From a virus, in IMG/VR virus record IMGVR_UViG_3300020467_000076, positions 1 through 20,384 of that record: a DNA stretch of 20,384 nt. One strand, written 5' to 3'. Shown here in pieces: positions 6,001 to 20,314 of this stretch (its first letter is position 1; each line of letters begins with the position of its first letter). Under the pieces are notes generated by a model. That model made no database searches. It was not told where the DNA came from and was given only the letters and a program-made list of their open reading frames with translations. Position numbers and translations under genes: made by a program.

Positions 6001-9000
6001 ACTTATAGTGCATCTACTGGTAAGATAACAGTTACAATGGCTGGTCATCCATTTGTTAATGGTGATTTAATTAAAATTAAGGATCATTCTATAGCACTTA
6101 AGTGTGAGATGGATAATTATGGATCTGTTCACAAATATCCTCGTCCTTCAGACCCAATAAGTGGAAAATGGGTTGCTGTTCAGAATAAGACTACAAATAC
6201 CTTCAAAATTGATGTAGGAACATCACCAACAGTAACATTTACACCATCTGATGCTGATTATGATCCTGTAACTGGTTTGATGGAATTACACATCGGATCA
6301 CATACATTAAGACCAGGTACAAGTATTAAAATTGCAACTAATTCTTTAGGATTTACTTGTGATGTTGATAATAACACATCAACTAAGACTTATCCAAGAT
6401 CTTCTGATCCATATAATGATACTGCAATAAAGATTGAATCTGTAACAGATACTACTATTACTGTACAAGTATTATCAGTTCAACCCTCTACAAACACTGC
6501 TCGTCATACATTTGTCAGTGCTGTACCGAATTGTATAAGCACAGGTGGAAATTATACCCATCAGTTCGATTCAGTGGTACCAGGAGGCATTTTAAAGGCA
6601 TCTAATACAGTTACTATTGTAGATAATTCACTAACATTTACTTGTTCTAGAGATAGTCATAGAAGCCCTCATACTTATCCAAGAACAACTGATCCAGCAT
6701 CAGGACAAACATTAGGTGTTGAGAGAATTGCTAATAATAGTTTCACTGTTAATGTTGGTACTGGTGGTGGAGGTGGTAGAGGAGCTATAGTTGAGGCTAA
6801 AGTTGCTACAAATAAACATAAATTTGTAAGTTCTAGTGCAGGTAGTTTTACTATAGGTTCTGGTGGTGTTTTAACACCAACTAATGCTAAGTATAATCCA
6901 GCAACTGGTGAATTAACAGTAATAAAAACTAGTCACGGTGTTGGTGGTGCAACTACAATGACACCTTCAAATGTTTCATATAATGAAATAACAGGTGATC
7001 TAACAATTACTAAAGATAATCATGGATTCGCTCAGTTTGATACAATTCTTATTGAAGATAATTCATTAACATTCACTTGTACTAAAGATGGAAATGTAAC
7101 TAGACATCATTATCCAAGACCTACTGATTATGCTAGTGGAAGATGGTTATTCATTACGAATGCTTCACTTAATGAATTTACAGTTAATGTAAATCCAAAT
7201 CCATCATCAGAAAAATATCCACATACCTTTATACAACCAGCAATAAATGGATGTATTCAGAAATCTAATGAAACTGTCACGATTGCTTCAAATTCATTAG
7301 TGTTTACTTGTGAGCATGATTTACATCAGACTTTACACTCATATCCAAGAACAACTGACCCTGCGTTTGGTGTATCATTACCAGTAGGAAAAGCAACTGC
7401 TGATACTTTTAGAGTAATGGTAGGAAAATCACCTGCAGGAACAGGCGGTGCGTTAGATTTAGTTATTAAAGATCCTGGTGGAAAGTATGTTAACCCAGAA
7501 ATTGAATTCCCAGATCCAATTTATGAAAATGTTCCTATTGTAGGTATTTCTAGATTAGGTGTAGGTAAGACTACAGATACTGGTAATAATCTTCTTATGA
7601 ATATGGCAGTTGGTGCTGCTAGAACTAGTGTTGGTATTGCTAGAAGTATGTTTGAAATTTCAGAATTTGAAATTGCAAGACCAGGACATTCGTTTAAGAT
7701 TGGTGATAAGTTTAAACCACAAGGATTGGTTGTTGATAAGAGATTGCAAAAACCATTACAAGAGTTTGAACTTGAAGTTGTAGAGACATTTAGTGATTTC
7801 TTCTCTGCATGGCAATTCGGTGAATTAGATTTTATTGATAGTATTTCATTGATGCAAACTGGATCTAGAAGAAGATTCCCATTATTCTTCAATGGTCAAT
7901 TATTATCATTTGAAGTTGATGAAGAATCTGCACTATCAGATCAAATAGATTTAAATGCGGTATTGTTGATATTCGTAAATGGAGTTTTACAAACACCTAA
8001 TATTTCATACCAATTTGAAGGTGGAACTACATTTACTTTCACTGAAGCACCAATGGCAAGTGATAAGGTGGATGTATTCTTCTATAAAGGAGAAGAGGGT
8101 GTTGATATTGAGATAGTTGATGTAAATGAAACTATAAAAATTGGAGATGATATTCATATTATTAAACATCCAGATTTCTTAAATCCAAATGTAGAACCAT
8201 TTACAGAGACTCAAGAAAAAGATAGACCAGTTAAATCTATATTGGGATCTGATTTAGTTGAAACAACAGTTTACACTGGTATTGGAATAACAGAATTTTA
8301 TGCTAAACCATTAGATTGGACTAAGCAAAAAACTGATTTCTGGATTAAAGGTGATTTAATTTCAAAAGCAAGAGAACAATTAGAACCCCAGATTTATCCA
8401 ACAGCAAAGATTATTGCAAGTGTAGGATCTACTACAGGATCTACTACAGCAGAAACTGATGGAATATTTGTAGATGATGCCGAATCATTCTTCTATGAAG
8501 AAGCACCATTACATCTTAAAGTAGAAGATAGATATGGAGTTTCTATAGAATCTGTTGACGCATTATTACTACCACCTGCTAACTTTATAGGTGCTGCAAT
8601 TACTGCAATAGTAAGTAATAAGGGTGATATTGAATCATTAGTAATTAATGAAGAAGGTAATGGATATGTTGGTGCTGCTATTACATTATCAATCTCTGCT
8701 CCAATTGGAGTTGGTATTGGAACAACTGAAAGAAATAAGTATGCAGTTACTGGAATTTCAACTTTTGCAGAAGCAAATGCTACAGTAACTGATGGGAAAA
8801 TTACTGGATATAACATAACAAATATTGGTTTAGGTTATACTCATTCCAACCCACCACAAGTTGTGATACCAGATGCATATTATGGATCTGAAAAGATATT
8901 GGAAATAAAGAATGTACAAGGATTTGCAGGTATTATTACTGGTATCTCCACATCAGCAGGAACAAATGGTCATCCATTGGCACTAAGATTTGCTTTCCGT

Positions 9001-9582
9001 GCAGATAAACCAACAACTGACTTGAAAGCAGGACATTATGTTTATATTTCAGATACACCATTTACTGTTGGTGGAGCAAAAACTGATGCTGAATACTTAC
9101 CATTTAATGATGGATCAATTCAACCAAATAATAACAGATTCATTGCTGGTATAGGTGGAGATCCAACTACATCTGTTGATAATAATGATAGTGAGATTAT
9201 TGCAATTGGATCAGGATTTATGGATAACATCTATAAGGTTTCTGAAATTGCATATACATCTGGTGAAAATGGTGAGATTGTTTGTAATATAAAAAATACA
9301 AATGATGTTATTGCTGGATTAGCTGCTACTGGATTCCATGACGCAGGTGGAGTTAATATAGACGAACCAACTAATATTGGTTTGACTACAACTTATGGAA
9401 AAATATCATGGGGTAGATTATATAATGCTACTAGAGCAGATTCACCAATCTCTTTAGATGTTACTGGGTTAACTGTTGATTCTGGATTAAGCACATTCCC
9501 AACAATTCAAAGAAGAAGTTATGCTAGATCTTCTCTGAAAGGTTTGAGGAATACTGGTGCTATTAGGATTCAAATAAGTTAA
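1..9582 (+). CDS. Giant virion structural protein, 5'-truncated by window edge (gp7-position baseplate/tail protein)
   Basis: The frame is open from base 1 to a TAA at 9580-9582, giving 3193 visible residues. The TTG at 421 is not a credible start, because the reading frame continues upstream without a stop and in the same style (for example HSLSNGDVVSLNV just before it). Visible modules, numbered from base 1, are: GG.EY/G.GY beta-type segments near 400-500 and 2860-2960; an RGSLGIG..EH module near 1500; a SGRTFLRQNYTTN..FDD segment near 1555-1583; two INGV.QTP modules near 1608 and 2658; a Cys/YPR repeat array at about 1721-2480; and the C-terminal GLRNTGAIR. Such modules are typical of giant structural proteins of T4-like cyanophages. 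The gene sits immediately before gp8, where T4 has gene 7, so a baseplate wedge or peripheral fibre role is likely. Direct homology to gp7 is not visible. The gene is sure, the structural role likely and the gp7 equivalence a guess. Confidence 0.9.
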   Translation, partial: HPFKTGQKLIFSKRGTANSLIVGDTEQAVNNFSLPNVTTDQSVVYAINKGQNYVGLVTQVGAATTSEGLFFKGNESDDYEYLLESTFEQVTGDIDKIVSTVTTNIAIANTESHSLSNGDVVSLNVVPNTVVGVGSTAPLSLIYNEDHEIILVNRVGFTSAGIDTTTNRITVPSHGFKTGDKIFYDADEDTSSVGGLPISSSYFVYELNRDQFSVSKTLKDVQVDPPLLIGISSTGAVDHTVAAINPQIDVIKNSKLTFNVSDSSLLGYELKVFYDKEFKNEFISSQDNNNFNVSGVGTVGVGTESTISLAFSKTTPSRLYYTLEKSGYISTADTTIPNYSEINFVDSAYSGDYKIFGITSDTFKVSPRSIPELLSYKEDQCDTIEYATESNSVSGSIKEIRVISKGFDYKQLPKFSSIVSLNGKNANVVALSTSIGRINSVRIVDFGYEYSSDRTLSPEAFVSPVVRIDDLDSIVSITVTDGGNEYLSAPDIIVYDPERDEIIDDTSLLAEVPYQTISEVKVIAPIQGLNSINHRIITINNSNGIGINSMEGGGSGIVTCTLETPIGGFRVSPFETGDEVFVEGVELFGEAGIGTQSNVSAGVATGGDGYNSANYQFRFFKVQEFVNSDPAVLKYSITGLTTNPGIAKTFQSGYANIVNKRNYPILEAVQERGEFIINEPLLVEENNKFISKNIKIADTREDFIKIDGTFRLKVGYRIKGETSNVSATITSIVENKARFEVDYANRQEYGWNDDSGKLNEDIQVTPNNDYFQNLSYSVKSPITWDNFVDPVNRLVHPSGLKNFADTSIETVVGNVGVGTSVSSVPVIVVDVLGERRVDTINNFDLAKDYDTRGNKSKFVTFENLKLTDYTKCKTNRVLLHDDISNKFSSKGLQDLFTEIEEIDSNFARYLVQIVDADTQDAQLSDMVVLTTTNDAFLVEKTTDWTKYKLGDFEALSDSFQRKTLNFNPTERYDRDHDIKVYKTDFTTNRISDGTNTIGSLDFKASNVKVAIADTDSNNNVSGFNTTTLAQFDHTDFNGFYASVVLQDDITKDLNYGEIVVDFDGTNLYYTESYIDTLNISYSSSQVGVLTARFDAGTIYFECENQTKRVINVSTNVVGLGTTTAGIGTYRFSVPGQPVGAERSGRLESTYHTGTSTPILVTRTHKDIDSAVKSFVRVSNETGGSAMHQVVSIQDGSDTTTIQYPFTGATTSGLGTFGTVTVGDYNELNFYPDTSQTTLIEVQAYNEVLNTINDFANEPLSLKYGPLEKAIILSAYDGVNGTRANKVNFDLTFEGTPIYSKIFNPADLVLEQTGFNIPNHFFNNNEEIKYIPGSTFVGIGSTAVSIGSTANNVGVVTDILPSTLFVKAIDSNNIELYTQKEYITSGLPVKITGVGEGNAHKFEMTKKLSKTVIGLDGIVQQPITFTAIEHNIDQEGGIGIGNSQFVLSGISSVQPRDVLKIGPEYMKVEQIGFSSLPEGIINKAEDVALGICTLPVVKVRRGSLGIGATEHADGAAARVHRGSFNIVDSTAWFLDPPKGNTRERRNETNLPYVRAEFSGRTFLRQNYTTNMVFDDISDNFTGIGRTYTMTVGGANTETGVGIGNGILFINGVFQTPLTVNNAGNNYEFEQDTNVGVSSVVFTGISSENGQMMQSEFDINQNQLPRGGLIVSMGSTPGLGYAPLVGAKVKVESFENTNRFANRSINGIVGLGTSSGLTIGIQTAAYDNTTGIITVTTNKVHGFSLGSPNTVKLKGLEFKCPTYVVGTPTTGTSYNPATGLLTIKIVDHNLTTGDSIKIDKEGLTFSCTYGSGGNDSYPRTTDPAYDKYLTVTVVDADTFTVNVLLGISPTNTDTHTFVGASPDCIRSLNYVGVTTSFFQDERLNAKDKERALQLVGIVSERSFEVKVGLTSIAHIYHGGGWAYEFWNDLTMGSGYREPVAIGVTDILYDHKFVSSDNDSVTANTGTQYTPSTVDYHSENGELVLTVGTHNLQAATEHTPDSVTYSASTGKITVTMAGHPFVNGDLIKIKDHSIALKCEMDNYGSVHKYPRPSDPISGKWVAVQNKTTNTFKIDVGTSPTVTFTPSDADYDPVTGLMELHIGSHTLRPGTSIKIATNSLGFTCDVDNNTSTKTYPRSSDPYNDTAIKIESVTDTTITVQVLSVQPSTNTARHTFVSAVPNCISTGGNYTHQFDSVVPGGILKASNTVTIVDNSLTFTCSRDSHRSPHTYPRTTDPASGQTLGVERIANNSFTVNVGTGGGGGRGAIVEAKVATNKHKFVSSSAGSFTIGSGGVLTPTNAKYNPATGELTVIKTSHGVGGATTMTPSNVSYNEITGDLTITKDNHGFAQFDTILIEDNSLTFTCTKDGNVTRHHYPRPTDYASGRWLFITNASLNEFTVNVNPNPSSEKYPHTFIQPAINGCIQKSNETVTIASNSLVFTCEHDLHQTLHSYPRTTDPAFGVSLPVGKATADTFRVMVGKSPAGTGGALDLVIKDPGGKYVNPEIEFPDPIYENVPIVGISRLGVGKTTDTGNNLLMNMAVGAARTSVGIARSMFEISEFEIARPGHSFKIGDKFKPQGLVVDKRLQKPLQEFELEVVETFSDFFSAWQFGELDFIDSISLMQTGSRRRFPLFFNGQLLSFEVDEESALSDQIDLNAVLLIFVNGVLQTPNISYQFEGGTTFTFTEAPMASDKVDVFFYKGEEGVDIEIVDVNETIKIGDDIHIIKHPDFLNPNVEPFTETQEKDRPVKSILGSDLVETTVYTGIGITEFYAKPLDWTKQKTDFWIKGDLISKAREQLEPQIYPTAKIIASVGSTTGSTTAETDGIFVDDAESFFYEEAPLHLKVEDRYGVSIESVDALLLPPANFIGAAITAIVSNKGDIESLVINEEGNGYVGAAITLSISAPIGVGIGTTERNKYAVTGISTFAEANATVTDGKITGYNITNIGLGYTHSNPPQVVIPDAYYGSEKILEIKNVQGFAGIITGISTSAGTNGHPLALRFAFRADKPTTDLKAGHYVYISDTPFTVGGAKTDAEYLPFNDGSIQPNNNRFIAGIGGDPTTSVDNNDSEIIAIGSGFMDNIYKVSEIAYTSGENGEIVCNIKNTNDVIAGLAATGFHDAGGVNIDEPTNIGLTTTYGKISWGRLYNATRADSPISLDVTGLTVDSGLSTFPTIQRRSYARSSLKGLRNTGAIRIQIS
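5161..7437 (+). repeat. Intragenic protein repeat array (Y..xTG.LT / L.FTC / YPR..DP units)
   Basis: Six units carry the signature L.F.C followed by YPR(T/P/S)(T/S)D(P/Y). Their YPR codons begin at 5443, 6136, 6391, 6676, 7111 and 7342. A full unit reads roughly: TP....Y...TG.LT....H.L..GD.I.I....L.FTC..D......YPR..DP..G..L.V......TFTVNVG.SP. Three extra, truncated units lie among them: 5161-5280 (stops after LEFKC), about 5899-5985 and about 6874-6960 (both stop after the H.L/H.V part and restart directly as a full unit). Copies 3+4 and 5+6 look like duplicates of a two-unit block. The units are well diverged at DNA level, so this is an old array rather than fresh slippage. Comparable modules occur in large tail proteins of marine phages; the fold and ligand are unknown to me. 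Confidence 0.85.
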
Positions 9583-9596
9583 TCAATAATAACGAC

Positions 9597-9604
9597 TATA
9601 AATA
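9597..9604 (+). promoter_or_regulatory. T4-type late promoter (TATAAATA) for gp8 operon
   Basis: An exact TATAAATA lies in the 48-nt gap between the giant gene and gp8, 26 nt before the gp8 ATG. T4-like phages use this element, read by the gp55-type late sigma with the sliding clamp, for virion genes. I found only two exact copies on the + strand of the window, and both sit at or in the only two gaps longer than 25 nt. That placement is the main support, since composition alone would give a few random copies. Confidence 0.8.
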
Positions 9605-9630
9605 AAGAAAAAAAGTCTTAGTTAATAAAA

Positions 9631-11202
9631 ATGTCGGCAATTGTTACTGATCAATTTAGAATTCTGAATGCGAATAACTTTGTAGAATCAGTAGAGTCTG
9701 ATGACAATTCTTATTACGTTTTCATTGGATTATCAAATCCAACAACAGTTGGATTTGGAAGAGATACAAACTGGAATACAAATACACCAGATCCTGTAGA
9801 TAATTTTTCTAGGCATGCTCATGTTGGCGACACCATGATGTATGGTAAGAAAATTTCTTCTGCTAATATTAGAAGGATTATCAGAAGAATTGACTGGACT
9901 GCTGGAAATCGGTATGAAATTTATAGAGATGATTATAGTGTAAGTAATCCAAGTCCTATAAAAGAATCGAGTCGATTATATGGTGCAAATTATTATGTAA
10001 TGAACTCAGATTTCAAAGTTTATCTTTGCATTTCTAATGGATCAACTGGTGAAAATCCAAAAGGTAATATTTCTCAAGATGAACCAACATTTACTGATTT
10101 AGAACCTTCTAGAGCTGGTACTAGCGGAGATGGTTATATTTGGAAATATATGTATACAGTATCTCCATCAGATATACTTAAATTTGATTCTACAGAGTAT
10201 ATTACTGTTCCTAATGGTTGGGCAACTAGTACAGATGCTCAAATTAGAAGTATACGAGAAAATGGTGATTCCATTGTAAATAATAATCAAATTAAGCATG
10301 TATATATTGATAAGGCAGGTGGTAAATATGCTGATGGATTAGGACAAGAGGTTAAAATTATTGGTGATGGTGAAGGTGGAAAGGCAAGAGTTGATATTGT
10401 CTCTGGTATAGTTAAGGATGTTACTGTAAGTTCTGGTGGTAAAGGTTATAGTTATGGTGTTGTGGATTTAGGTGCTTTACAGGATACCCAACATCCATCA
10501 AACCAACGGGCAAAATTAGTTCCTATAATTCCACCATCTCTTGGGCATGGTTACGATATCTACACTGAATTGGGAACAGATAAGGTATTGATATATGCTA
10601 GATTTGATGATTCTACAAAAGACTTTCCAACAGATACAAAGTTTGCACAAGTAGGTATTGTAAAGAATCCAACTGAAGTTGGAACTGCCAATACTTTTAC
10701 TGGAACGACTTTTTCATCTTTACATGCTTTTAAATTTAAAACTGTTAATGGTACTCCAACCATTGGTGAAGAAATAACACAGGATATTTCCGATTCTAAT
10801 GGTGATCCTCAAAAAGCCCGTGCTTATGTTGCTTCATATGATAAAGAAACTCAAGTTATGAAGTATTTTAGAGATAGATCTCTAAATTATACCACTACAA
10901 ATGATCAGACTGATTATGCTGGTATTTCAACTAGTGGTCAGATATATTCATTTGAATCTACTGCTAATGCTGTTAAGGGAACAAGTTCTACTTTTTCAGG
11001 AACTATTGATACAGGGTTTACTGGAATTAGTACAAATCCATCTGGAACAAAGTTGATTAATTTAGAAACCACCTTCAATGAGGGGCTATCTAAACCTGAG
11101 ATAAATAAAGGATCGGGGGAAATTGTTTATCTTGATAATAGACCTTCGATTGCTCGAAATACTCGACAAAAAGAAGACGTTAAAATCATCCTGGAATTCT
11201 AA
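9631..11202 (+). CDS. 8: Baseplate wedge subunit gp8 (enlarged, marine T4-like form)
   Basis: This 523-residue protein matches T4 gp8 (334 aa) at several points. The N-terminal IVTDQFRILNANNFVESV parallels T4 IVTSKFRTEKMLNFYNSI. GDGYIWKYMYTVSPS...TEYITVP at about residues 166-193 parallels GDGYVWEYLFEIPPD...NEYIVVP. FPTDTKFAQVGIVKNP at about 332-347 parallels LPGNKGFRQISIITNP, and the terminal GSGEIVYLDNRPSI (494-507) parallels SGEMIYMENRPPI. gp8 is a dimeric component of the T4 baseplate wedge that joins the gp7/gp10 assembly. The extra ~190 residues come as two blocks: a GG.GY beta-type module at about 226-280, and a stretch from about 360 to 480. The ATG at 9631 is the first start after the late promoter, and the conserved N-terminus follows it directly. 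No strong Shine-Dalgarno is seen, only A-rich leader. The next gene starts 6 nt after the stop. Confidence 0.93.
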   Translation: MSAIVTDQFRILNANNFVESVESDDNSYYVFIGLSNPTTVGFGRDTNWNTNTPDPVDNFSRHAHVGDTMMYGKKISSANIRRIIRRIDWTAGNRYEIYRDDYSVSNPSPIKESSRLYGANYYVMNSDFKVYLCISNGSTGENPKGNISQDEPTFTDLEPSRAGTSGDGYIWKYMYTVSPSDILKFDSTEYITVPNGWATSTDAQIRSIRENGDSIVNNNQIKHVYIDKAGGKYADGLGQEVKIIGDGEGGKARVDIVSGIVKDVTVSSGGKGYSYGVVDLGALQDTQHPSNQRAKLVPIIPPSLGHGYDIYTELGTDKVLIYARFDDSTKDFPTDTKFAQVGIVKNPTEVGTANTFTGTTFSSLHAFKFKTVNGTPTIGEEITQDISDSNGDPQKARAYVASYDKETQVMKYFRDRSLNYTTTNDQTDYAGISTSGQIYSFESTANAVKGTSSTFSGTIDTGFTGISTNPSGTKLINLETTFNEGLSKPEINKGSGEIVYLDNRPSIARNTRQKEDVKIILEF

Positions 11203-11208
11203 AGAAAA

Positions 11209-14200
11209 ATGCCACAAAAGACTAACTTAAATATAAGTCCTTATTATGATGATTTTGATAAGGCAGATAACTTTTATAAGGTACTGTTTAAACCTGGATA
11301 TCCAGTTCAAGCAAGAGAATTAACAGGTTTGCAATCAATATTGCAAAACCAATTAGAATCGTTTGGAAGTCATATTTTTAAAGAAGGTTCAATGGTTATT
11401 CCTGGTGGAGTAACTTACGATAGTACATATTTTGCTGTAAAAGTAAATCCCGATCATTTGGGTATTGATGTTACAGTATATCTTGATGCAATAATTAATA
11501 ATAATGATGGTAAGGGAACTTTAGTCCGTGGACAAAATTCTCAAATATTAGGAACTATCAAAAATTATATTCTTCCACCATCTGAAGGTGTTGATGATAT
11601 TACTCTATTTGTTAAATATAAATCTTCTGGGGATAATAAGGAAAGTCAAGCATTTCCAAATCAAGAAATATTAACACTTGAAGAAAATATTACTTATGGT
11701 AATACTACATTAAATTCTGGAGAATCTGTCTTAACATTGGTATCTGAAGATGCAACTGCTGTTGGATCTGCTGTTGGTGTTGATCAAGGTGTGTATTTTA
11801 TTAGAGGTACATTTGTAGATGTAAGTAAGTCTCTTGTAGTTCTTGAACCATATAATAATACACCATCATATAGAGTTGGATTTGAAGTATTAGAGCAAGT
11901 TATTAATGCTAATGATGAACCTTCTTTAAACGATAATGCTAAAGGATTTACTAATTTTGCTGCACCAGGTGCAGATAGATTTAGAATATCGGTCAAATTA
12001 ACTAAAAAGGCACTATTAGATTATAACGATACCAATTTTGTAGAGCTATTAAGAGTACGAAATGGTGAAATAAAGAAATTAGAGAATAAGTCTGTATATT
12101 CAGAGATTAAAAAATATTTTGCTAAAAGAACATATGATGAATCTGGCAACTATGCAGTAAATCCATTTAGAGTAAACATTCAAAATTCATTGAATGATGA
12201 GATTGGTTCTGATGGATTATATGTAGAAGGTCAAAAGACTGATGAAGGTAATGATCCTTCAGAAGATACAATGTGTGTTAAGTTGTCACCAGGCACAGCA
12301 TATGTTAGAGGATTTGATGTAAATCTACCAGGAACAACTGTTTTAGATGTAGATAAACCAAGAGATACTAAGAGTATTAAAAATTCACCTATCCCATTTG
12401 CAATGGGTAGTTTATTGAGAGTAAATAATGCTCAAGGATCTCCTTACATTAATATTGGTTCTGCTGAGAGTGGTGGTGCTAATGTTATTCATTTTTATAG
12501 TAGAAGAATAAGAGCAATTGAAGCAAAAAGTCAAACTACTGATGAATTAGGTGCAAAAGTTGGTGAGGCTCGTGTTTATTGGTATGGTCTTACTGATGAT
12601 TCTTACAATGGTGCAGCAACTCAGTGGGATTTATATTTGTATGATATACAAACTTATACTTATCTTGAAATAAGTAATCCAGGTACAATTACTAATATTG
12701 CACCAGTATCATCATATATTCGTGGTTTAAGTAGTGGTGCTACTGGATATGTATCTGGAACAAATGCAAATGAGTTAGTTTTATCTCAAACATCTGGAAC
12801 CTTTATTCAAGGAGAACAGTTAAAGTTTAATGGACAAGATATAGCCTCTAATTCTTCAGTAATTAAAGTTACATCTTATACTACTGATGACATTAAATCT
12901 GTATATCAAGATGCTAAGACACTTTCAAGTAATAAACTATTAACCCCATTTGCTGCTGATTCTGTTCTATATGATAGAATTTTACCAAATTTCTCCGCCT
13001 TTGACAATTTAGTAATTGTTGGAGATTCTACTGGAGATACTGGAACTGGAACTGTATCTAAAAGAAGATTTTCTGGTCAAGTTGGATTAAAAACTGATTC
13101 TATTGTTGGATATTCAACAAATACTGATGGTGTTCAATTTGAAACCTTTAATAGAGTACATTCAATTCAACCTGATGGTGATTGGATATCACTTAGACCA
13201 GTTGGTATTGTAACAGGAATAATGAATGGTGAAATTGTTTCTGGAGTAACAACTTCAGGAATATTCCGTATTAAATCACCTAAAATTCTCAAGTTCAATA
13301 ATTCTGGATTATATGCTAAATTACCTAAGAGAAATGTTTCTGCAGTAGATTTATCGAACTCAACATTATCAATATCTCGTCAGATAACAGGAAAAGCAAC
13401 ATCTGCTAGTGGTAGTATAACTTTAACAACTCAAGATGCTTTAGATGGATCTTCAGATAATGGTGCAATTGGTATTACTAGTGCTTTCTTTGAGACATTT
13501 GATCAAGAAAGATATTCTGTTGTTTATGATATTGATGGAGTACCAGAAAAATTAAGTTCAGATAAAGTTACTATTACTAATGATGGTAATGATTTAGTAT
13601 TTATAGGTCTTTCTAGAAATAGTGCAAATGTAACTATTAACACAACATTAAAGAAAATAGGTCTTAAAAGTAAGTCTAAAGATTATATTAGAAGTAATAA
13701 AGTAGAAATAACAAGAACTGTAGGTGTGTCAACTAATGCACAACTAACTCAAAGTAAATTCTATGGTCTAAGAGTTGAAGATAAGGAAATATCATTAAAT
13801 GTTCCTGATGTAGTAAAGATTCTTGCAGTATTTGAATCTAAAGATACAAATACTCCTAGTTTAGATAGATTGACATTTGTACAAGGTTTAGCATTAGATA
13901 CAAATTCTATAATTGGTGAAAAAATTGTTGGTAATAAGAGTAGAGCAATAGGTCAAATTGTTAATAGACCTTCTACTAATGAAATTGATTTTGTATATCT
14001 TAATGGAAATACATTCTCACCTGGTGAGACAGTTAACTTTAAAGAGTCCAATATAGAGACAAATATTCAAAAAGTAGTTCCTGGAAACTATGTGAATAGA
14101 ACATCTAATTATAGATTGGATAAGGGACATAAGAAACAGTATTCTGATTATTCTAAGATAGTTAGAAAGGCAAATGCAGGTTCTCCTTCTAAGAGATTGC

Positions 14201-17200
14201 TTATTATATTTGATAAGTATCAAGTTCAGAGTGGAAATAATGGTGATTTATTCACTATAAATTCATATACTAAGGATAGGTACACGAATGATATTCCAAG
14301 TATAGGAAGAACTAGAGCAAGTGATATTCTTGATTTTAGACCAAGAGTAAATGAATTTGATCCATCAACAACTAATGCATCTCCATTTGCGTTTTCATCA
14401 AGAAGTTTTGAAACAACAACTAGATATGTTGTTGCTCCAGATGAATCATCAATTGTTGGGTATACTTATTATCTACCGAGGATTGATAAACTAGTAATTA
14501 ATAAATTTGAACAAGTAAAACTTATTAAGGGAATCTCTGCTGAAGATCCAGCACCACCTACTGAGGTTGGTGATTCTATGGAAGTTGCTGAAATCACACT
14601 TCCTCCATATCTTTATGATCCTATAACTGGTCCTAATATCAAGTTATATGATAATAGAAGATTTACCATGAGAGATATTGGTAAAATTGAGAAAAGAGTT
14701 TCTAATTTAGAAATAATGACTTCTCTTACTGCTCTTGAATTGGACACTAAATCATTATCAGTAACTGATGCTGATGGATTAGATAGATTTAAGACTGGAT
14801 TTGTTGTAAATGATTTCAAAAATAGAGATTTTATTAACACCAATCGTGAGCAAGGATCTAGATGCGAGATTGATGTTGTTAATAAAGAATTAATCAGTGC
14901 TGTTGATTTCTGGTCACTTCCTGCTGAATTGGCATTTGATCCTTCTATAGATCAAAATGTCGTAGATATTTCATCTAATTTAAAACTTTTAGATCCTAAT
15001 TGTAAGAAAACTGGAGATATATTAACATTAGATTTTGAGGAAGTTAGGTGGATTGAACAACCACAAGCATCTCAAGTTGAGAATATTAACCCATTTGAGG
15101 TTATAGTATATGTTGGTGGTATTATTCTTGATCCACCATCAGATAATTGGACTAGAACAATATATGTTGAGGGAACTCATAGAACAGAATCTACAGGTGC
15201 AACTTGGGCTGAACATCAAAATATTGTTTCTGATACGAGCCAATCAAATACTGATGTAACAGTAACTGAAACTGAAATCGAGGCTGATCAGGATGAGTTT
15301 GAAGGTAATCATAGAGATATTACTACAACTAGAACAACAACTACAACAAGAACTGTAGAAACTTCATTTACTAATACATTAGAGAATGCAGGTAGAGAGT
15401 TTGATTATGTTGAAAGTATTAAGATTAGTGGTGCAACTGATCCATTTATGCGTAGTAGAAACGTTGCATTCAATGCAAATGGATTAAAACCAAGCACAAG
15501 GCATTATGCATATCTTGATAGTGCTGCTCCTGATATAACACCTAAAGTAACTGAAATTCAAATGAGTTCTGGTTCTTTCCAGAATTATGAACATGTTGAT
15601 GTATATGATGGTAGTAAATTGGTTGCTACTGTTATAGCAGTCCCACCAAATCATAAGTATGGTGATACTAACGTTATTAGACTTCCTATTGTAGGTCCTT
15701 TTGATAGCAGTCCATATACTATGCCAGGTAATGATGGATCAGCCATCGTTGGTAATACTATGCAAAATGAGCAGCAAATTAGAGCATCATTAACTTCTAG
15801 TGGTGTAAGTGTTGTTGGTGGAACCACTGAAAAATATATGGTAGATATATTTGATAGTTCAAGACCAGCACCATCTGATTCATACTCTGCTACATCTAAA
15901 ATATTTAATTGTGATGTAAATGAACTTGCAAATAGACCTAGTCAAGGTGGTTATATATCCGAAGGATTTACACTTATAGGAAATACCAGTGGTGCATCAG
16001 CAATAGTAACGAATGCAGGATTATTCTCTGATAATTGGGGAGATTGTTTAGGTGCAATATATTTCAGAAATGCAAATCTAATACCAAAACCATCACCTTT
16101 GTTTAGAACAGGAACAAAGACTTTTAAATTAACTGCTGCTTCTGTAGGAACAACAGTACTTCCAGGTAGTACTGCATTAGCTAGTGATGCTTCTACAAGT
16201 TATCATGCTACTGGAACTATCCTAACTCAAGTAACAAATACTGTCGGTGTTAGGAATCCACCTGCACCTGCACAGAGACCAAATGAAATTAATACTACTG
16301 TTAGTGTTAATGAAGAATCTTCAACACGAAGAATAAGGGCTCCTTATAGAGATCCTTTAGCACAATCATTTACTGTTGATGAATCTGGTGCATTCTTAAC
16401 TTCATTTGATGTTTACTTTGCTAAGAAAGATCCAAATGCTAAGGTATTTGTAGAACTTAGGACTGTAGAATTAGGAACACCAACAGGTTGGCTTGTTCAA
16501 GATTATGCTCAAGTGGCAATTAATCCGAATAATATACAGACTTCAGATGATGCTTCTATTCCTACTAGGATTAAATTCCCATCACCAATTTATTTGGAAG
16601 CACAAAAAGAATATGCCTTAGTATTCTTATCACCAGGATCTGATCAATATGAAATGTGGTGTGCAACAATGGGTCAAAAGACTGTTAAAACATCCAATTT
16701 ACCTGATGTTGAAAGTGTTGTTGTTACTAAGCAATATATTGGTGGTAGTCTCTTTAAATCTCAAAATGGTAGTATATGGACTCCAAGTCAGTATCAAGAT
16801 TTAACATTTACTCTTTATAAAGCAGAATTTGTTCCTTCTGGTACAGTTACATTCTATAATACTCCAGTTGAGGCAGGTAACGAAAATACTCAGATATTAT
16901 CAGATAATCCTATTAGAACACTTCCAAGAAAATTAAAACTTGAATTAAATTGGCCAGGTGCATCATATACTGCAGGTCAAGAAGTTTTTGTTGGAGTTGG
17001 AAGAAAGATTAGTACTGGTGCTGTTGGTGATAGAGAAGATGATAGTATTACAGGTATTGTTGAAAAAGTATCTGCTCCTATTGCACTTGGTGTTGATGCG
17101 GTTACTCTCGTTACTGGTGGATCAGGGTATGTATTTAGTAATTTAAATGGAGTCAAGTTAAAGACATTAACTGGTGGTGGTAGTGGTATTACTGCAACAA

Positions 17201-18840
17201 TAACATTAACTAATGGAGTAATTACTGATATTGATGCTTCTTCTGGTAATGCTGGTACAGGATACTCTGTTGGTGATGTTCTTACTATAGATGAAACTGA
17301 TAGTAAGTATACATCTGGTATTGGTGCAAAATTCACTGTCGATGCTGTAGTAGCAAAACCAGACACTCTATATCTAACAGATGTTCAAGGTGAGAATTTC
17401 ATTACTAGTGAAACTATAGTACATTATGGAAATTCAAATAATGATACTAGAACCGTTCTTACTGGTGTAACTGTAGCATCAGATTCAGTTCCTACAAGTG
17501 ATATTAATACTGGTAATGTTATAGAAGTGGTTCAACCTAATCATGCACATCACGGTGGAAACAATATTGTTAGTATTAAAGGTATAGAACCAGACACAAT
17601 ATCTACAGTAACAAAATCAGACCTATCAAAAGATGCAACACTAGTATCAGTTGCAAGTACATCATCATTTGCCAGATTTGCTGGAGTTACTACTGATAGA
17701 GGAGAAGCTTTATTAGGATCTGAAATTGTTAATTATGTTATTGGAGAAGGTCAACTTAATATTACTAGGGGAATTGAAGGTTCTTCTGCAGTTGAGCATC
17801 CAGAAGATACTAAGATTCAACCATATGAAATAAATGGATTCCCATTAGCAGGTATTAATACTACATTTAATTTACCTACAAATACAACTCTAAAATCTTC
17901 ATCTAATATAGACAATTATTACTTAGAAATTGATAGAGGAACAAGTGATAGAGTTAGTGGTAAGAATATGTTATGTTTCACTGATGAGAAAGCAATAGGT
18001 GGATTAACTGTAGATATTTCTCAAAATCATCAGTTTAGTACATTATCACCACAATTTAATATTGTTACACCTGGAAAAGGAACTCGTGTAAATACTTCTG
18101 TCAGAACAGTAAGTGGAACAAGTGCTGATGGAAATGAAGTATCATTTATTGATCAGGGATTTGAACCAACTACTTTGAATGAAACGACATTCTTCCCAAC
18201 ACCTAGATTAGTTGCATCTAAAGTTAATGAGATTCAAAGATTGGAAACTTTACCTAAGAATAAATCCTTAACTTTGAAAGTTGATATGACTTCAACAGAT
18301 AAGAATTTATCTCCAATATTGGATATTAAAAATGCAACCTTTATTTTAGGTAGAAATAAGATTAATAATCCAGTTGGACAAGATGGATATGCATCTGATA
18401 TTGGAACTACAGAATTAAGTGGTGATCGTCATGGATCAATCTTTGTTTCAAATAGGGTTAATCTTAAGCAACCTGCAACTTCAATAAAAGTTTTAGTTGC
18501 TGCTAATCGACAACCAGAAGCAGATTTCAGAGCATATTATAGATTGTTTACTGCAGATTCAACTGAAGTTAATCAAGGATATAGAGCATTCCCTGGTTAT
18601 AAGAATCTGATTGATACTGATGGTGATGGTTTTGGTGATGAAATTATTGATGTTAATTTAAATGATGGTAGACCAGATGCCTATGTTCAACCAAATGGTT
18701 TAAATGATTTCTCAGAATATCAATTTACTATAAATGATTTGGAGCAATTTAGTGGATTTACTATCAAGATAGTAATGGCATCCACGAACGAATGTGTTCC
18801 TGTTAGATTAAAAGACTTTAGAGCAATTGCCTTAGCGTAA
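11209..18840 (+). CDS. DUF4815-type giant baseplate/tail structural protein
   Basis: This 2543-residue protein starts 6 nt after gp8. Its N-terminus (LNISPYYDDFDKADNFYKVL, then PGYPVQARELTGLQSILQNQ to about residue 53) is the pattern I know as DUF4815, found in tail proteins of many myoviruses. Later landmarks are: a short coiled-coil-like RDIGKIEKRVSNLE (about 1155-1168); a Thr/Arg-rich stretch (about 1371-1388); FMRSRNVAFNANGLKPSTR (from 1413); DPLAQSFTVDESGAFLTS (from 1715); a GG.GY module (about 1962-2047); NHAHHGG (2111-2117); an RGIEGSSAVEH module (from 2187); and a calcium-loop-like DTDGDGFGDE (2469-2478) near the C-terminus. These blocks are conserved in large structural proteins of T4-like cyanophages. 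It takes the place of T4 genes 9-12, so a peripheral baseplate or fibre role is inferred. It shares one base with the next gene (TAATG). Confidence 0.88.
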   Translation: MPQKTNLNISPYYDDFDKADNFYKVLFKPGYPVQARELTGLQSILQNQLESFGSHIFKEGSMVIPGGVTYDSTYFAVKVNPDHLGIDVTVYLDAIINNNDGKGTLVRGQNSQILGTIKNYILPPSEGVDDITLFVKYKSSGDNKESQAFPNQEILTLEENITYGNTTLNSGESVLTLVSEDATAVGSAVGVDQGVYFIRGTFVDVSKSLVVLEPYNNTPSYRVGFEVLEQVINANDEPSLNDNAKGFTNFAAPGADRFRISVKLTKKALLDYNDTNFVELLRVRNGEIKKLENKSVYSEIKKYFAKRTYDESGNYAVNPFRVNIQNSLNDEIGSDGLYVEGQKTDEGNDPSEDTMCVKLSPGTAYVRGFDVNLPGTTVLDVDKPRDTKSIKNSPIPFAMGSLLRVNNAQGSPYINIGSAESGGANVIHFYSRRIRAIEAKSQTTDELGAKVGEARVYWYGLTDDSYNGAATQWDLYLYDIQTYTYLEISNPGTITNIAPVSSYIRGLSSGATGYVSGTNANELVLSQTSGTFIQGEQLKFNGQDIASNSSVIKVTSYTTDDIKSVYQDAKTLSSNKLLTPFAADSVLYDRILPNFSAFDNLVIVGDSTGDTGTGTVSKRRFSGQVGLKTDSIVGYSTNTDGVQFETFNRVHSIQPDGDWISLRPVGIVTGIMNGEIVSGVTTSGIFRIKSPKILKFNNSGLYAKLPKRNVSAVDLSNSTLSISRQITGKATSASGSITLTTQDALDGSSDNGAIGITSAFFETFDQERYSVVYDIDGVPEKLSSDKVTITNDGNDLVFIGLSRNSANVTINTTLKKIGLKSKSKDYIRSNKVEITRTVGVSTNAQLTQSKFYGLRVEDKEISLNVPDVVKILAVFESKDTNTPSLDRLTFVQGLALDTNSIIGEKIVGNKSRAIGQIVNRPSTNEIDFVYLNGNTFSPGETVNFKESNIETNIQKVVPGNYVNRTSNYRLDKGHKKQYSDYSKIVRKANAGSPSKRLLIIFDKYQVQSGNNGDLFTINSYTKDRYTNDIPSIGRTRASDILDFRPRVNEFDPSTTNASPFAFSSRSFETTTRYVVAPDESSIVGYTYYLPRIDKLVINKFEQVKLIKGISAEDPAPPTEVGDSMEVAEITLPPYLYDPITGPNIKLYDNRRFTMRDIGKIEKRVSNLEIMTSLTALELDTKSLSVTDADGLDRFKTGFVVNDFKNRDFINTNREQGSRCEIDVVNKELISAVDFWSLPAELAFDPSIDQNVVDISSNLKLLDPNCKKTGDILTLDFEEVRWIEQPQASQVENINPFEVIVYVGGIILDPPSDNWTRTIYVEGTHRTESTGATWAEHQNIVSDTSQSNTDVTVTETEIEADQDEFEGNHRDITTTRTTTTTRTVETSFTNTLENAGREFDYVESIKISGATDPFMRSRNVAFNANGLKPSTRHYAYLDSAAPDITPKVTEIQMSSGSFQNYEHVDVYDGSKLVATVIAVPPNHKYGDTNVIRLPIVGPFDSSPYTMPGNDGSAIVGNTMQNEQQIRASLTSSGVSVVGGTTEKYMVDIFDSSRPAPSDSYSATSKIFNCDVNELANRPSQGGYISEGFTLIGNTSGASAIVTNAGLFSDNWGDCLGAIYFRNANLIPKPSPLFRTGTKTFKLTAASVGTTVLPGSTALASDASTSYHATGTILTQVTNTVGVRNPPAPAQRPNEINTTVSVNEESSTRRIRAPYRDPLAQSFTVDESGAFLTSFDVYFAKKDPNAKVFVELRTVELGTPTGWLVQDYAQVAINPNNIQTSDDASIPTRIKFPSPIYLEAQKEYALVFLSPGSDQYEMWCATMGQKTVKTSNLPDVESVVVTKQYIGGSLFKSQNGSIWTPSQYQDLTFTLYKAEFVPSGTVTFYNTPVEAGNENTQILSDNPIRTLPRKLKLELNWPGASYTAGQEVFVGVGRKISTGAVGDREDDSITGIVEKVSAPIALGVDAVTLVTGGSGYVFSNLNGVKLKTLTGGGSGITATITLTNGVITDIDASSGNAGTGYSVGDVLTIDETDSKYTSGIGAKFTVDAVVAKPDTLYLTDVQGENFITSETIVHYGNSNNDTRTVLTGVTVASDSVPTSDINTGNVIEVVQPNHAHHGGNNIVSIKGIEPDTISTVTKSDLSKDATLVSVASTSSFARFAGVTTDRGEALLGSEIVNYVIGEGQLNITRGIEGSSAVEHPEDTKIQPYEINGFPLAGINTTFNLPTNTTLKSSSNIDNYYLEIDRGTSDRVSGKNMLCFTDEKAIGGLTVDISQNHQFSTLSPQFNIVTPGKGTRVNTSVRTVSGTSADGNEVSFIDQGFEPTTLNETTFFPTPRLVASKVNEIQRLETLPKNKSLTLKVDMTSTDKNLSPILDIKNATFILGRNKINNPVGQDGYASDIGTTELSGDRHGSIFVSNRVNLKQPATSIKVLVAANRQPEADFRAYYRLFTADSTEVNQGYRAFPGYKNLIDTDGDGFGDEIIDVNLNDGRPDAYVQPNGLNDFSEYQFTINDLEQFSGFTIKIVMASTNECVPVRLKDFRAIALA

Positions 18841-18875
18841 TGATAACTTTTCAAGAATTTTTAATATTATGTGAG
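18840..18875 (+). other. Predicted capsid-targeting/propeptide segment 1 (MITFQEFLILCE)
   Basis: These twelve codons resemble the T4 internal-protein targeting peptide, sharing M.T(Y/F)QEF, and end in L-C-E, a plausible gp21-type prohead protease site. Cleavage would leave a mature protein starting GGLSRS. The similarity is seen directly; targeting and cleavage are inferred from T4. Confidence 0.5.
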
Positions 18876-19349
18876 GGTGGTTTATCAAGATCACTTAGCA
18901 AATCAGAAACTCATGATACTGGACATATATCTCCAGATCGTGGAGATGATGAGAGTGAAAATCGTAAAAAAAGAAAAAAACTTGAAAGTGATTTAAAAAG
19001 AAAAGGTATTGGATTTAAAAAATCAACTGGTAAGTATAAGTATGATGATGGTTCTGATGCCCGTGAAGTTTCTTACCATACAACAAGACCAGAAGGAATG
19101 TCAAAAAGAAAGTTTGGCAAGACTATGAGGAAGTTTGGTAATAAATATGGTCAGGAGTCTATTATTACTAAAAAAGCAGGTAAAAGTGCTAAATTACACT
19201 ACACTGATAAGAGTGGAAGAAAACCTGATGATATAGGAAAGGCAAAAGCAGGTAAACATCCAGATGGTTATGGGGAAACTGGCGAAAAACGCCAGAGAGG
19301 TTCTAAATTAAAAGACAAGAAAAAAGATAGGGATTTCCACTACTCATGA
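18840..19349 (+). CDS. Small basic protein with capsid-targeting-like N-terminus; candidate internal head protein 1
   Basis: This 169-residue protein starts at an ATG overlapping the previous TAA by one base, so it is translationally coupled. It begins MITFQEFLILCE, resembling the T4 internal-protein targeting peptide (MKTYQEFIAE), and L10-C-E12 fits the L/I-x-E cleavage pattern of the T4 prohead protease gp21. The rest is very basic: 44 Lys/Arg against 26 Asp/Glu by my count. A central globular-looking part (about residues 29-121) includes HISPDRGDDESEN, a Lys/Arg run at 42-47, FGNKYGQESII and KLHYTDKSG. From memory this resembles a family of small T4-like cyanophage proteins with an RGD..S..EN...YGQ(D/E)S(V/I) pattern, perhaps related to DUF3293, but I cannot confirm it. 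The C-terminus (about 134-169) is Gly/Lys-rich and probably disordered. A role as packaged, DNA-associated cargo is inferred. Confidence 0.75.
   Translation: MITFQEFLILCEGGLSRSLSKSETHDTGHISPDRGDDESENRKKRKKLESDLKRKGIGFKKSTGKYKYDDGSDAREVSYHTTRPEGMSKRKFGKTMRKFGNKYGQESIITKKAGKSAKLHYTDKSGRKPDDIGKAKAGKHPDGYGETGEKRQRGSKLKDKKKDRDFHYS
19279..19295 (+). other. Perfect GC-rich hairpin inside the 169-aa gene
   Basis: CTGGCG AAAAA CGCCAG forms a 6-bp perfect stem with a five-A loop, which stands out in this A+T-rich DNA. It lies about 50 nt before the start of the next gene. No T-run follows, so it is not a typical intrinsic terminator. It could affect RNA processing or translation of the downstream start, or be a coding coincidence. 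Confidence 0.35.
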
Positions 19350-19396
19350 AAACTTTTAAACAATTTAACGAAGAGTCAAAGCAAAAACTTGATGAA
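19346..19396 (+). other. Predicted capsid-targeting/propeptide segment 2 (MKTFKQFNEESKQKLDE)
   Basis: These seventeen codons start with the same MKTFKQF as the next gene. The first L/I-x-E site is L-D-E at residues 15-17, so the predicted propeptide is longer than in T4. Cleavage would leave a mature N-terminus of ALPLAAA. Across the first 22 bases this copy and the one at 19854 differ at three positions, two of them synonymous third positions in TTT/TTC and AAA/AAG codons and the third a synonymous ACT/ACA change. Confidence 0.5.
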
Positions 19397-19852
19397 GCAT
19401 TGCCTTTAGCAGCAGCAATACCAGCACTAGTTAAGTTTGGTAGTGCAGCATTGACAGCGTATTCTGCTGGTTCAGCAATAAACAATGCTAGAAAAGGTAA
19501 ATGGGGAAAAGCAGGACTTGATGTTGTTGGTGCAATACCAGCTGGTAGGGTATTCAGAGGTCTTAAAACATTGGGTGCTGGAAAAAGATTAGCACAAGCA
19601 GGTTCAGCAACTCATAGTCTTACAAGGCACGGAACAGATAATGCCTTTAGTAGAGCATATGGAAAAGTATGGGATACAGGAGCTAAAATGCTTGGATTTG
19701 GGGGTGATGCTAAAGCAAATAATAAGACTAATACTAAGACCAATACAAATACAAATACTAAGACTAACACAACCACTCCTTCTAAAGTAAAGGGTCCTGC
19801 TAAAACTGCTGCTGGTAAACTTAGATTAGCAAGTGGTAGAATAGCGAGTTAA
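19346..19852 (+). CDS. Ala/Gly-rich basic protein with capsid-targeting-like N-terminus; candidate internal head protein 2
   Basis: This 168-residue protein overlaps the previous stop by four bases (ATGA). It begins MKTFKQFNEESKQKLDE. MKTFKQF closely matches the T4 capsid-targeting peptide, and L15-D-E17 is a gp21-type cleavage candidate. The predicted mature part opens with a hydrophobic Ala-rich stretch (LPLAAAIPALVKF to about residue 43). A segment INNARKGKWGKAGLDVVGAI (45-64) follows, with PAGRVFRGLK after it. Its W..AG.D..G.IP.G pattern is reminiscent of pre-toxin or membrane-associated linker regions in polymorphic toxins; that likeness is weak and from memory. Residues 125-144 are an Asn/Thr/Lys low-complexity linker, followed by a basic tail. 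I count 28 Lys/Arg against 8 Asp/Glu. The hydrophobic stretch is shorter and more broken than a sure transmembrane helix. A packaged protein that meets the host membrane or DNA is inferred, and no enzyme motif is seen. Confidence 0.75.
   Translation: MKTFKQFNEESKQKLDEALPLAAAIPALVKFGSAALTAYSAGSAINNARKGKWGKAGLDVVGAIPAGRVFRGLKTLGAGKRLAQAGSATHSLTRHGTDNAFSRAYGKVWDTGAKMLGFGGDAKANNKTNTKTNTNTNTKTNTTTPSKVKGPAKTAAGKLRLASGRIAS
19718..19777 (+). repeat. Asn/Thr/Lys low-complexity coding repeat
   Basis: The DNA is a run of AAT/AAC, ACT/ACA and AAG codons that encodes N/T/K alternation (KTNTKTNTNTNTKTNT) at about residues 125-144 of the 168-aa protein. It looks like a slippage-prone flexible linker between the Ala/Gly-rich part and the basic tail. 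Length variation among relatives would be expected. Confidence 0.7.
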
Positions 19853-19853
19853 T

Positions 19854-19883
19854 ATGAAAACATTTAAGCAATTCATAACTGAA
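19854..19883 (+). other. Predicted capsid-targeting/propeptide segment 3 (MKTFKQFITE)
   Basis: These ten codons have the same length as the T4 targeting peptide (MKTYQEFIAE), and cleavage is predicted after Glu10 of I-T-E. Of the three segments in the window this is the strongest candidate, since both the motif and the position of the cleavage site agree with T4. Confidence 0.6.
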
Positions 19884-20114
19884 TTAGACGCAAAGAATAG
19901 TATTGAAAGGTTACATCCTTTCAAAACTATGAAAGTAGGTGGAGTGAAGGATGGTAAATTTAAATACCCTCATCATTTGAGGTTATTTAAAAAAGTTATG
20001 GGTAAAAAGAAATTTGGTAAGGATGATTCAATCCCTACAAAATCTATAACTGACCCCAATGTTAGGGATAAGAACAATGACAATACAAATCCTATTAAAA
20101 AAATAAAAGTATGA
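19854..20114 (+). CDS. Small Lys-rich protein with capsid-targeting-like N-terminus; candidate internal head protein 3
   Basis: This 86-residue protein starts one base after the previous stop. MKTFKQFITE is the closest match in the window to the T4 internal-protein targeting peptide MKTYQEFIAE, with six of ten positions identical. I8-T-E10 fits the I/L-x-E prohead protease rule at the same position as in T4. The remaining ~76 residues are strongly basic (22 Lys/Arg against 9 Asp/Glu overall), with clusters such as RLFKKVMGKKKFGK (43-56) and IKKIKV at the C-terminus. There are no Cys, no membrane segment and no enzyme motif. The size and charge resemble small T4 internal proteins. It overlaps the next gene by four bases (ATGA). 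DNA packing or injection with the genome is inferred; a non-head role cannot be excluded. Confidence 0.75.
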   Translation: MKTFKQFITELDAKNSIERLHPFKTMKVGGVKDGKFKYPHHLRLFKKVMGKKKFGKDDSIPTKSITDPNVRDKNNDNTNPIKKIKV

Positions 20115-20311
20115 TACCAGTTGAAGGACATAAAAATCTGTTTCGTGATCCAGAAACAGGTGCGATTTTAAATTATGATTCAAAAGGATATGCCCAATAC
20201 AATACTAAAAAAACTAGAAGTGCTGATCAGAAAGCAGAACTGGATGAGATGAAAAAAGATATTGATGAGATCAAATCTTTATTGCAACAGTTAGTTAATA
20301 ATAAAATATAA
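20111..20311 (+). CDS. Small conserved-type phage protein with C-terminal coiled coil
   Basis: This 66-residue protein begins MIPVEGHKNLFRDPETGAIL and overlaps the previous gene by ATGA. Residues 8-30 contain (F/Y)RDPETGAI.N, a pattern I recall from short proteins in T4-like cyanophage structural regions, though I cannot name the family. Residues about 41-62 (KAELDEMKKDIDEIKSLLQQ and following) have hydrophobics at heptad spacing and look like a short coiled coil, suggesting oligomerization or docking to a larger virion protein. It lacks the MKTFKQF-type N-terminus of the three genes before it, so it is probably not part of the same cargo set. Its TAA stop lies inside the next late promoter, so it ends the operon. 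Function unknown. Confidence 0.75.
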   Translation: MIPVEGHKNLFRDPETGAILNYDSKGYAQYNTKKTRSADQKAELDEMKKDIDEIKSLLQQLVNNKI

Positions 20312-20314
20312 ATA
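20307..20314 (+). promoter_or_regulatory. T4-type late promoter (TATAAATA) for the right-edge gene
   Basis: An exact TATAAATA overlaps the TAA stop (20309-20311) of the 66-aa gene and lies 29 nt before the next ATG. This spacing is close to the 26 nt seen upstream of gp8. It is the second of only two exact + strand copies found, and it marks the start of a new late transcription unit. Confidence 0.78.

Follow-up and report, generated by a model that had tools for sequence, protein, structure and literature searches.

Predicted internal head proteins with a T4-like targeting leader, one of them of the S-adenosylmethionine lyase family, in a relative of marine cyanophages

Introduction

Why should three consecutive genes behind the baseplate genes of a marine virus encode proteins that begin alike and continue differently? 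The question is raised by IMG/VR record IMGVR_UViG_3300020467_000076, a stretch of 20,384 bases that was analysed as a whole (the window). Its closest relatives (genus Salacisavirus) are two phages of Prochlorococcus, P-SSM2 and P-SSM5, together with viruses from marine single cells, AG-345-F15 among them. An earlier note, made from the DNA alone, took the three genes for a candidate cassette of injected cargo, and its reading of the open reading frames (ORFs) was correct: they occupy 18840-19349 (protein 1, 169 amino acids, aa), 19346-19852 (protein 2, 168 aa) and 19854-20114 (protein 3, 86 aa), and start with MITFQEFLILCE, MKTFKQFNEESKQKLDE and MKTFKQFITE.

These starts recall the internal proteins IPI, IPII and IPIII of phage T4, which are described as combining a short leader (aromatic residue at position 4, F7 and an x-E cut site) with small basic bodies that vary between phages (PMC9026906). 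For IPIII, residues 4 and 7 are reported as most important for targeting, and residues 8 and 10 for cutting (PMC9026906). We consider it probable that the virus is a T4-like cyanophage whose three genes likewise code for internal proteins of the head, and that their cargo, including a lyase of the methyl donor S-adenosylmethionine (SAM), would be ejected with the DNA and pre-empt SAM-dependent defence. A SAM lyase delivered in this way would solve a timing problem, as synthesis after entry may be too late against restriction.

A shared leader on three basic proteins

F4 and F7 are present in all three proteins, and each leader ends in an L/I-x-E tripeptide of the gp21 type, placed where the earlier note had seen it: LCE at residues 10-12 of protein 1, LDE at 15-17 of protein 2 and ITE at 8-10 of protein 3. 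The spacing in protein 3 is identical to that of T4, and the site lies two residues further in for protein 1 and seven for protein 2. The proteins are basic to the degree that the note had counted, with 44 K/R to 26 D/E in protein 1, 28 to 8 in protein 2 and 22 to 9 in protein 3. That their bodies are unrelated after residue 12 is also borne out, except that proteins 2 and 3 match weakly in a low-complexity stretch (31%, 32 aa, E 0.006-0.013).

Searches of PHROGs, Pfam, PADLOC and NCBIfam assigned protein 2 to no family, and its AlphaFold model (mean predicted local distance difference test score, pLDDT, 43.9) was not used. Its Gly-rich stretch is reminiscent of hydrophobic segments found ahead of toxin domains; profile searches gave this resemblance no backing. 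Protein 3 gave only weak matches, to phrog_3966 (E 0.045) and to phrog_8765, 'internal virion protein' (E 0.051), and is a mosaic whose first half is like loci L004 and L005 (L numbers are our locus handles) and whose tail is like L074.

A strict DNA pattern encoding M-[KR]-x-[FY]-x-x-F-[LIMVF]-x-E was run on 12 phage records and on a reversed control, giving 12 matches in the former and none in the latter. The matches in T4 were ipII, ipIII and gene 61.1 (L192:367-531), which encodes a 54-aa hypothetical protein starting MKTFKEFIKE, the internal-protein leader pattern. P-SSM2 was matched at PSSM2_115, the gene in the equivalent slot, and at a cytidyltransferase; S-CREM2 at gp6 (SAM hydrolase) and gp154 (cytidylyltransferase); and S-SM1, P-SSM4, S-SSM5 and Syn9 at a cytidyltransferase each. 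The match in AG-345-F15 is an unannotated ORF that clusters with the cytidyltransferases, and S-PM2, S-WAM1, HTVC008M and T3 had none. Starts of a looser kind also exceed the chance level: ORFs of at least 40 aa starting M[KR][TSN][FY]xx[FL] numbered one in S-CREM2, none in S-SM1, eight in AG-345-F15, three in P-SSM2 (72 kb) and two in the window; the reversed sequences gave one in S-SM1 and none in the other four. A rough survey sorted 105 tagged proteins into 17 body clusters; cluster 0 lumps small slot proteins together with protein 1, and cluster 3 arose as an artefact of the reverse strand.

Leader-bearing relatives in published virions

Mass spectrometry of the S-CREM2 virion yielded the 52 proteins of Table 3 in PMC10665884. 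Among S-CREM2 ORFs of at least 25 aa, exactly four have a strict F4-F7-E10 start, namely gp6, gp14 (a kinase), gp136 and gp154, and all four are in that list (4 of 52, against 0 of the 167 other proteins; Fisher p 0.003). A looser leader pattern is found in 5 of the 52 and in 1 of the 167. The evidence for gp6 in the virion comprises 19 unique peptides (PMC10665884). Two further virion proteins have similar starts outside the strict pattern, gp13 (MKDLHSFLTE, in the loose set) and gp15 (MNFSEFNES). S-SM1 has the strict motif at the start of a single ORF, the T4-GC190 cytidyltransferase (MKKFSAFLNE), whose presence in the virion was reported by Sullivan et al. 2010 (PMC3037559). ORFs and annotated genes of S-CREM2 and S-SM1 were matched by eye.

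It is highly improbable, in our judgement, that the common N-terminus is unconnected with the head, whether as a coincidental resemblance or as a signal for translation or for the membrane. In favour of this view, a virion list can include contaminants. Against it stand the enrichment among virion-detected S-CREM2 proteins, the absence of strict matches from the reversed control and the fact that the known internal proteins of T4 are picked out by this pattern too.

Separately, the virion-detected protein S-CREM2 gp12 (L159:7704-10313) carries the annotation Cas9, and its leader-like stretch, FASFMAEA, lies not at the N-terminus but near residue 19; the start assigned to it, or its naming as Cas9, may merit checking.

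The predicted cut site and the join between leader and body

Homologues of protein 1 were found at 94 loci, five of which were cut or short and were skipped; 57 were distinct, and 39 rows, the window included, were aligned. All 39 have [LIM]-x-E at the end of the leader and G as the next residue, while leader length runs from 9 to 18 residues in the 38 rows that begin at the start codon (the L053 row had been extended upstream of its first ATG, and its leader length, 7, was left out). Across 17 sequences the ratio of non-synonymous to synonymous substitution rates was 0.16 for leader residues 2-12 and 0.21 for the body; the leader of protein 1 is thus under purifying selection, like the body.

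The other tagged proteins were examined through 46 representatives, whose leaders are common by descent and which are not independent. An [LI]xE tripeptide occurs at residues 7-20 in 29 of the 46, compared with an average of 7.2 in shuffles, none of 2000 of which scored as high, and the same test in three later stretches of tagged proteins gave 0 of 44 each time. Within the protein 2 family, six leaders carry the site at shifting positions (LDE, IQE, LDE, LSE, LNE, LDE) before a related body. One body is found behind two leaders: GKADAFLA follows MKTFKEFIAE in L091 and MKTFKQFQFNISE in AG-345-F15, and the junction of this swap lies exactly at the predicted cut.

Protein 1 belongs to the SAM lyase family

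The earlier note had counted protein 1 among variable, unrelated effectors. This did not hold: it is instead a conserved protein of the SAM lyase family, with relatives at 72 viral-contig loci and in 40 phage records (in many cases a GenBank and a RefSeq entry for one phage), which rules out a variable effector of no known kind. The assignment follows from a Pfam match, the predicted fold and aligned residues together. PF23780 scored 36.7 bits on protein 1 (cut-off 28), and the same model gave 143.2 bits on the T3 SAMase and 70.1 bits on S-CREM2 gp6.

The AlphaFold model of protein 1 (mean pLDDT 66; 10-residue means 61-91 over residues 21-130; ends disordered) has the ferredoxin-like/PII-like fold of SAM lyases. 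In a Foldseek search of PDB, ranks 1-4 were SAM lyases (E 7e-4 to 1e-2), rank 1 alone lying below 0.001. VIA-align gave Z scores of 10.3 and 10.1 with T3 SAM lyase and 8.0 and 7.0 with Svi3-3, the next being a designed ferredoxin fold at 6.3. E76 of protein 1 aligns with T3 E68 (equivalent to Svi3-3 E69) and Q105 with a Gln of T3, whose residue numbering was counted by hand, and E76, Q105 and E106 are invariant in 39 of 39 relatives. Loss of E68 is reported to abolish rescue by the T3 SAMase in vivo, and loss of E69 nearly to abolish Svi3-3 activity (PMC7877911). We therefore assign protein 1 to the family and predict, from its sequence and model, that it has lyase activity.

Relatives at other genome positions retain a leader: that of P-TIM68, beside purM, has MKTYKEFIQDIQE from its seventh residue, S-CREM2 gp6 starts with MKDFDSFLEE, and the version in an Alishewanella phage, MNFEQLLESEINALSE, conforms less exactly. 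Separately, the 433-aa relative in L054/L055 and L091:6711-8522 end in a similar ...KSLRAWNC tail. The last 86 residues of L091:6711-8522 match phrog_727 and several other families of no known function, and a common C-terminal domain with this tail may be fused to SAM lyases too.

Exchange slots for leader-tagged genes

Between protein 1 and T4-GC 112 we compared 32 distinct slots, counting ORFs of at least 40 aa where both flanking genes were found and taking identical slots once. Nine held no ORF, 15 held one and 8 held two; in some of the nine the left anchor is partial at a contig end (L029, L089, L092). The slot is empty in S-SM1, and at L011:7339-8394 a protein 1 relative extended to 351 aa fills it alone. 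The idea of one targeting leader on many bodies is upheld by these relatives, as the leader is found on 25 of the 31 distinct slot proteins and the remaining six form one family. Among the other plus-strand ORFs of at least 100 aa in the slot loci, 9 of 182 match the leader, eight of these resembling the same kind of gene.

That untagged family, M[RK]NSVNPA.KFIIDPSGSGKLVKF..PIDLR, is found in L015, L016, L017, L018, L020 and AG-345-F15 (L167:14765-14902), always immediately behind the SAM-lyase-family gene. The near-identical contig L004 has a further tagged gene at 16565-16954 (L004:16565-16954; start MKSFNEFSESLKQ) with a Cys-containing basic motif, CWKGYKAKGTKKK, to which a stretch of the virion protein S-CREM2 gp15 is loosely similar.

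A second slot lies between uvsY and uvsW, where relatives of protein 2 occur and where L081, L080 and AG-345-F15 have two or three consecutive tagged genes. Of 80 loci, 73 were surveyed by script and 29 had a recognisable uvsY. A loosely tagged ORF was present in four of the 29, one of which (L213, with a nucleotidyltransferase-like start) was deemed a chance match; with tagged genes in just three of 29, this slot is used by a minority of loci. Tagged genes have a third location after gp15 in L091. The cargo slot that the earlier note placed in the baseplate operon thus recurs in relatives and is hypervariable, but it is just one of at least three locations of such genes.

Could protein 1 be the only real cargo, the small slot proteins being unstable ORFs whose leader is common through local duplication? 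Many slot leaders are indeed near-identical and some of the bodies are short (44-92 aa). The same type of leader, however, also stands on bodies elsewhere, several of them long (in AG-345-F15, for example, 286, 321 and 465 aa). The distance from the start to the cut site varies, yet the site itself is maintained, and we judge this explanation distinctly unlikely.

A candidate mechanism and how it fares

In the account that we favour, the leader, through its aromatic residue 4 and F7, would steer each protein into the prohead core, the gp21 prohead protease would remove it after L/I-x-E, and the mature basic body would enter the host along with the DNA. There the protein 1 body would start at once to break down SAM, ahead of phage gene expression, and the loss of SAM would weaken defences that depend on it, type I restriction and bacteriophage exclusion (BREX) among them. 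Proteins 2 and 3 would occupy an exchange slot that places different bodies on the same leader. What we observe is a conserved leader joined to many bodies, together with the family, fold and catalytic residues of protein 1; for the window proteins we infer packaging, cleavage, ejection, enzyme activity and an anti-defence role.

T4 is reported to carry about 360 copies of IPI (PMC9026906), and the turnover given for Svi3-3 (25 C, 1 mM) is about 9.5 SAM each second (PMC7877911). If the same values applied here, up to about 3,400 SAM would be destroyed per second. A pool at an assumed 100 micromolar in an assumed cell of 0.1-0.3 fL amounts to about 6,000-18,000 molecules and would last seconds, which makes prompt protection against SAM-dependent defences by a virion-borne SAM lyase plausible on this estimate.

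The three proteins might instead be packaged and processed and then act in the head, as basic fillers that aid the assembly of the core or the packing of DNA; protein 1 would then have a domesticated SAM-lyase fold. A filler role has been proposed for T4 IPIII, mutants of which are reported as defective in head assembly (PMC9026906), and all three proteins are basic. The invariance of E76, Q105 and E106, on the other hand, fits an enzyme. Furthermore, close relatives have either nothing or something else in the slot, and in S-SM1 it contains no gene, from which the small cargo appears dispensable. We regard a filler role as unlikely.

Several points nevertheless weigh against ejected cargo with a SAM lyase. 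Detection in virions concerns leader-bearing relatives in other phages, not the window proteins, and the S-CREM2 authors caution that virion enzymes might be carry-over from purification (PMC10665884). S-CREM2 gp18 starts MKFDCF yet is outside the virion list. The strict pattern also matches T4 61.1, a hypothetical protein, and misses S-PM2, S-WAM1 and HTVC008M, and 17 of the 46 other tagged proteins have no [LI]xE at residues 7-20. For protein 1, hhalign of its alignment against the T3 SAMase was not significant, and sequence searches of PDB with the protein and its alignment gave no SAM lyase.

With more reserve than for the three window genes, we can suggest a general cyanophage cargo system made of a transferable leader with a protease site, several exchange slots in late operons and a pool of interchangeable injected effectors, in which the SAM lyase would drain the small SAM pool of a picocyanobacterium within seconds of entry and disarm SAM-dependent restriction or BREX ahead of any phage protein synthesis; this wider proposal is tentative and could well fail. 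If true, it would explain the SAM lyase, kinase and cytidylyltransferases in cyanophage virions, link these puzzling enzymes to T4's well-studied internal proteins and provide a sequence rule to predict which cyanophage proteins travel in the head. The finding is directly testable because isolated relatives (P-SSM2 and P-SSM5) exist.

Relation to known systems

The three proteins differ from the T4 internal proteins in phage genus and hosts, in the cut lying further in for proteins 1 and 2, in the position of the genes behind cyanophage baseplate genes and at other late loci, and in having one body of the SAM lyase family. A relative of protein 1 is S-CREM2 gp6, which has 38.6% identity with it (residues 1-127) and likewise matches PF23780; gp6 carries the strict leader (MKDFDSFLEE) and was detected in virions, and it differs in being 414 aa long, with a long C-terminal extension, and in its genome position. 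The S-CREM2 authors propose that this 'SAM hydrolase' enters the host and counters restriction, so that for that phage the literature already has a SAM hydrolase in the virion and the suggestion that it acts against restriction (PMC10665884). The words 'targeting', 'N-terminal' and 'propeptide' do not occur in the text of PMC10665884. The T3 SAMase and Svi3-3 are of the same Pfam family and fold as protein 1, with the catalytic Glu aligned (PMC7877911), whereas the T3 enzyme is expressed early and, its domain match beginning at residue 13, has no leader. DarA and Hdf of phage P1 are alike by description, as defence-against-restriction proteins linked to the head (PMC12810830).

In searches of an open-access library we found no paper that ties cyanophage virion enzymes to a T4-type targeting leader, and none that describes these exchange slots. 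New here are the assignment of protein 1 to the SAM lyase family, its leader, the hypervariable slot of leader-tagged genes, the recurrence of related bodies at other late loci and the body swap at the predicted cut.

Gene order and other features of the window

The unit runs from gp8 through a 2543-aa protein (T4-GC 109) to proteins 1, 2 and 3 and the 66-aa T4-GC 112, with starts and stops of neighbouring genes overlapping or almost touching (Table 1). The gp21 prohead protease is annotated in the relatives P-SSM2, S-SM1 and S-CREM2; the window ends short of that region.

Table 1. Features of the unit and its surroundings, in window coordinates
Feature	Position	Strand	Evidence or remark
TATAAATA late-promoter-like box	9597..9604	+	about 27 nucleotides before gp8 start; position only
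gp8, baseplate wedge subunit	9631..11202	+	phrog_438 E 1e-158, PF09215; context
2543-aa counterpart of P-SSM2 PSSM2_113 / T4-GC 109	11209..18840	+	phrog_358; DNA match to P-SSM2; left flank
Protein 1 leader MITFQEFLILCE	18840..18875	+	predicted cut after E12; [LIM]xE, then G, in 39/39 relatives
Protein 1 body, SAM-lyase-family domain	18876..19349	+	Pfam match residues 36-136
Protein 2 leader MKTFKQFNEESKQKLDE	19346..19396	+	predicted cut after E17; [LI]xE at shifting positions within family
Protein 2 body	19397..19852	+	basic, hydrophobic, Gly/Ala-rich; relatives in L076-L081, AG-345-F15
Protein 3 leader MKTFKQFITE	19854..19883	+	spacing as in T4 ipII/ipIII leader
Protein 3 body	19884..20114	+	small, basic, mosaic
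phrog_473 / T4-GC 112 'virion structural protein'	20111..20311	+	right flank of slot
TATAAATA late-promoter-like box	20307..20314	+	end of unit

The earlier note had set the three genes between a baseplate gene and the next late promoter. The two TATAAATA boxes are placed to fit, yet across the window the core ATAAATA shows no enrichment (5 occurrences against 13.8 expected), and late promoters as an enriched motif were rejected on that count. Upstream of gp8, a 3053-aa ORF at 421-9582 occupies the place of P-SSM2 gp7.

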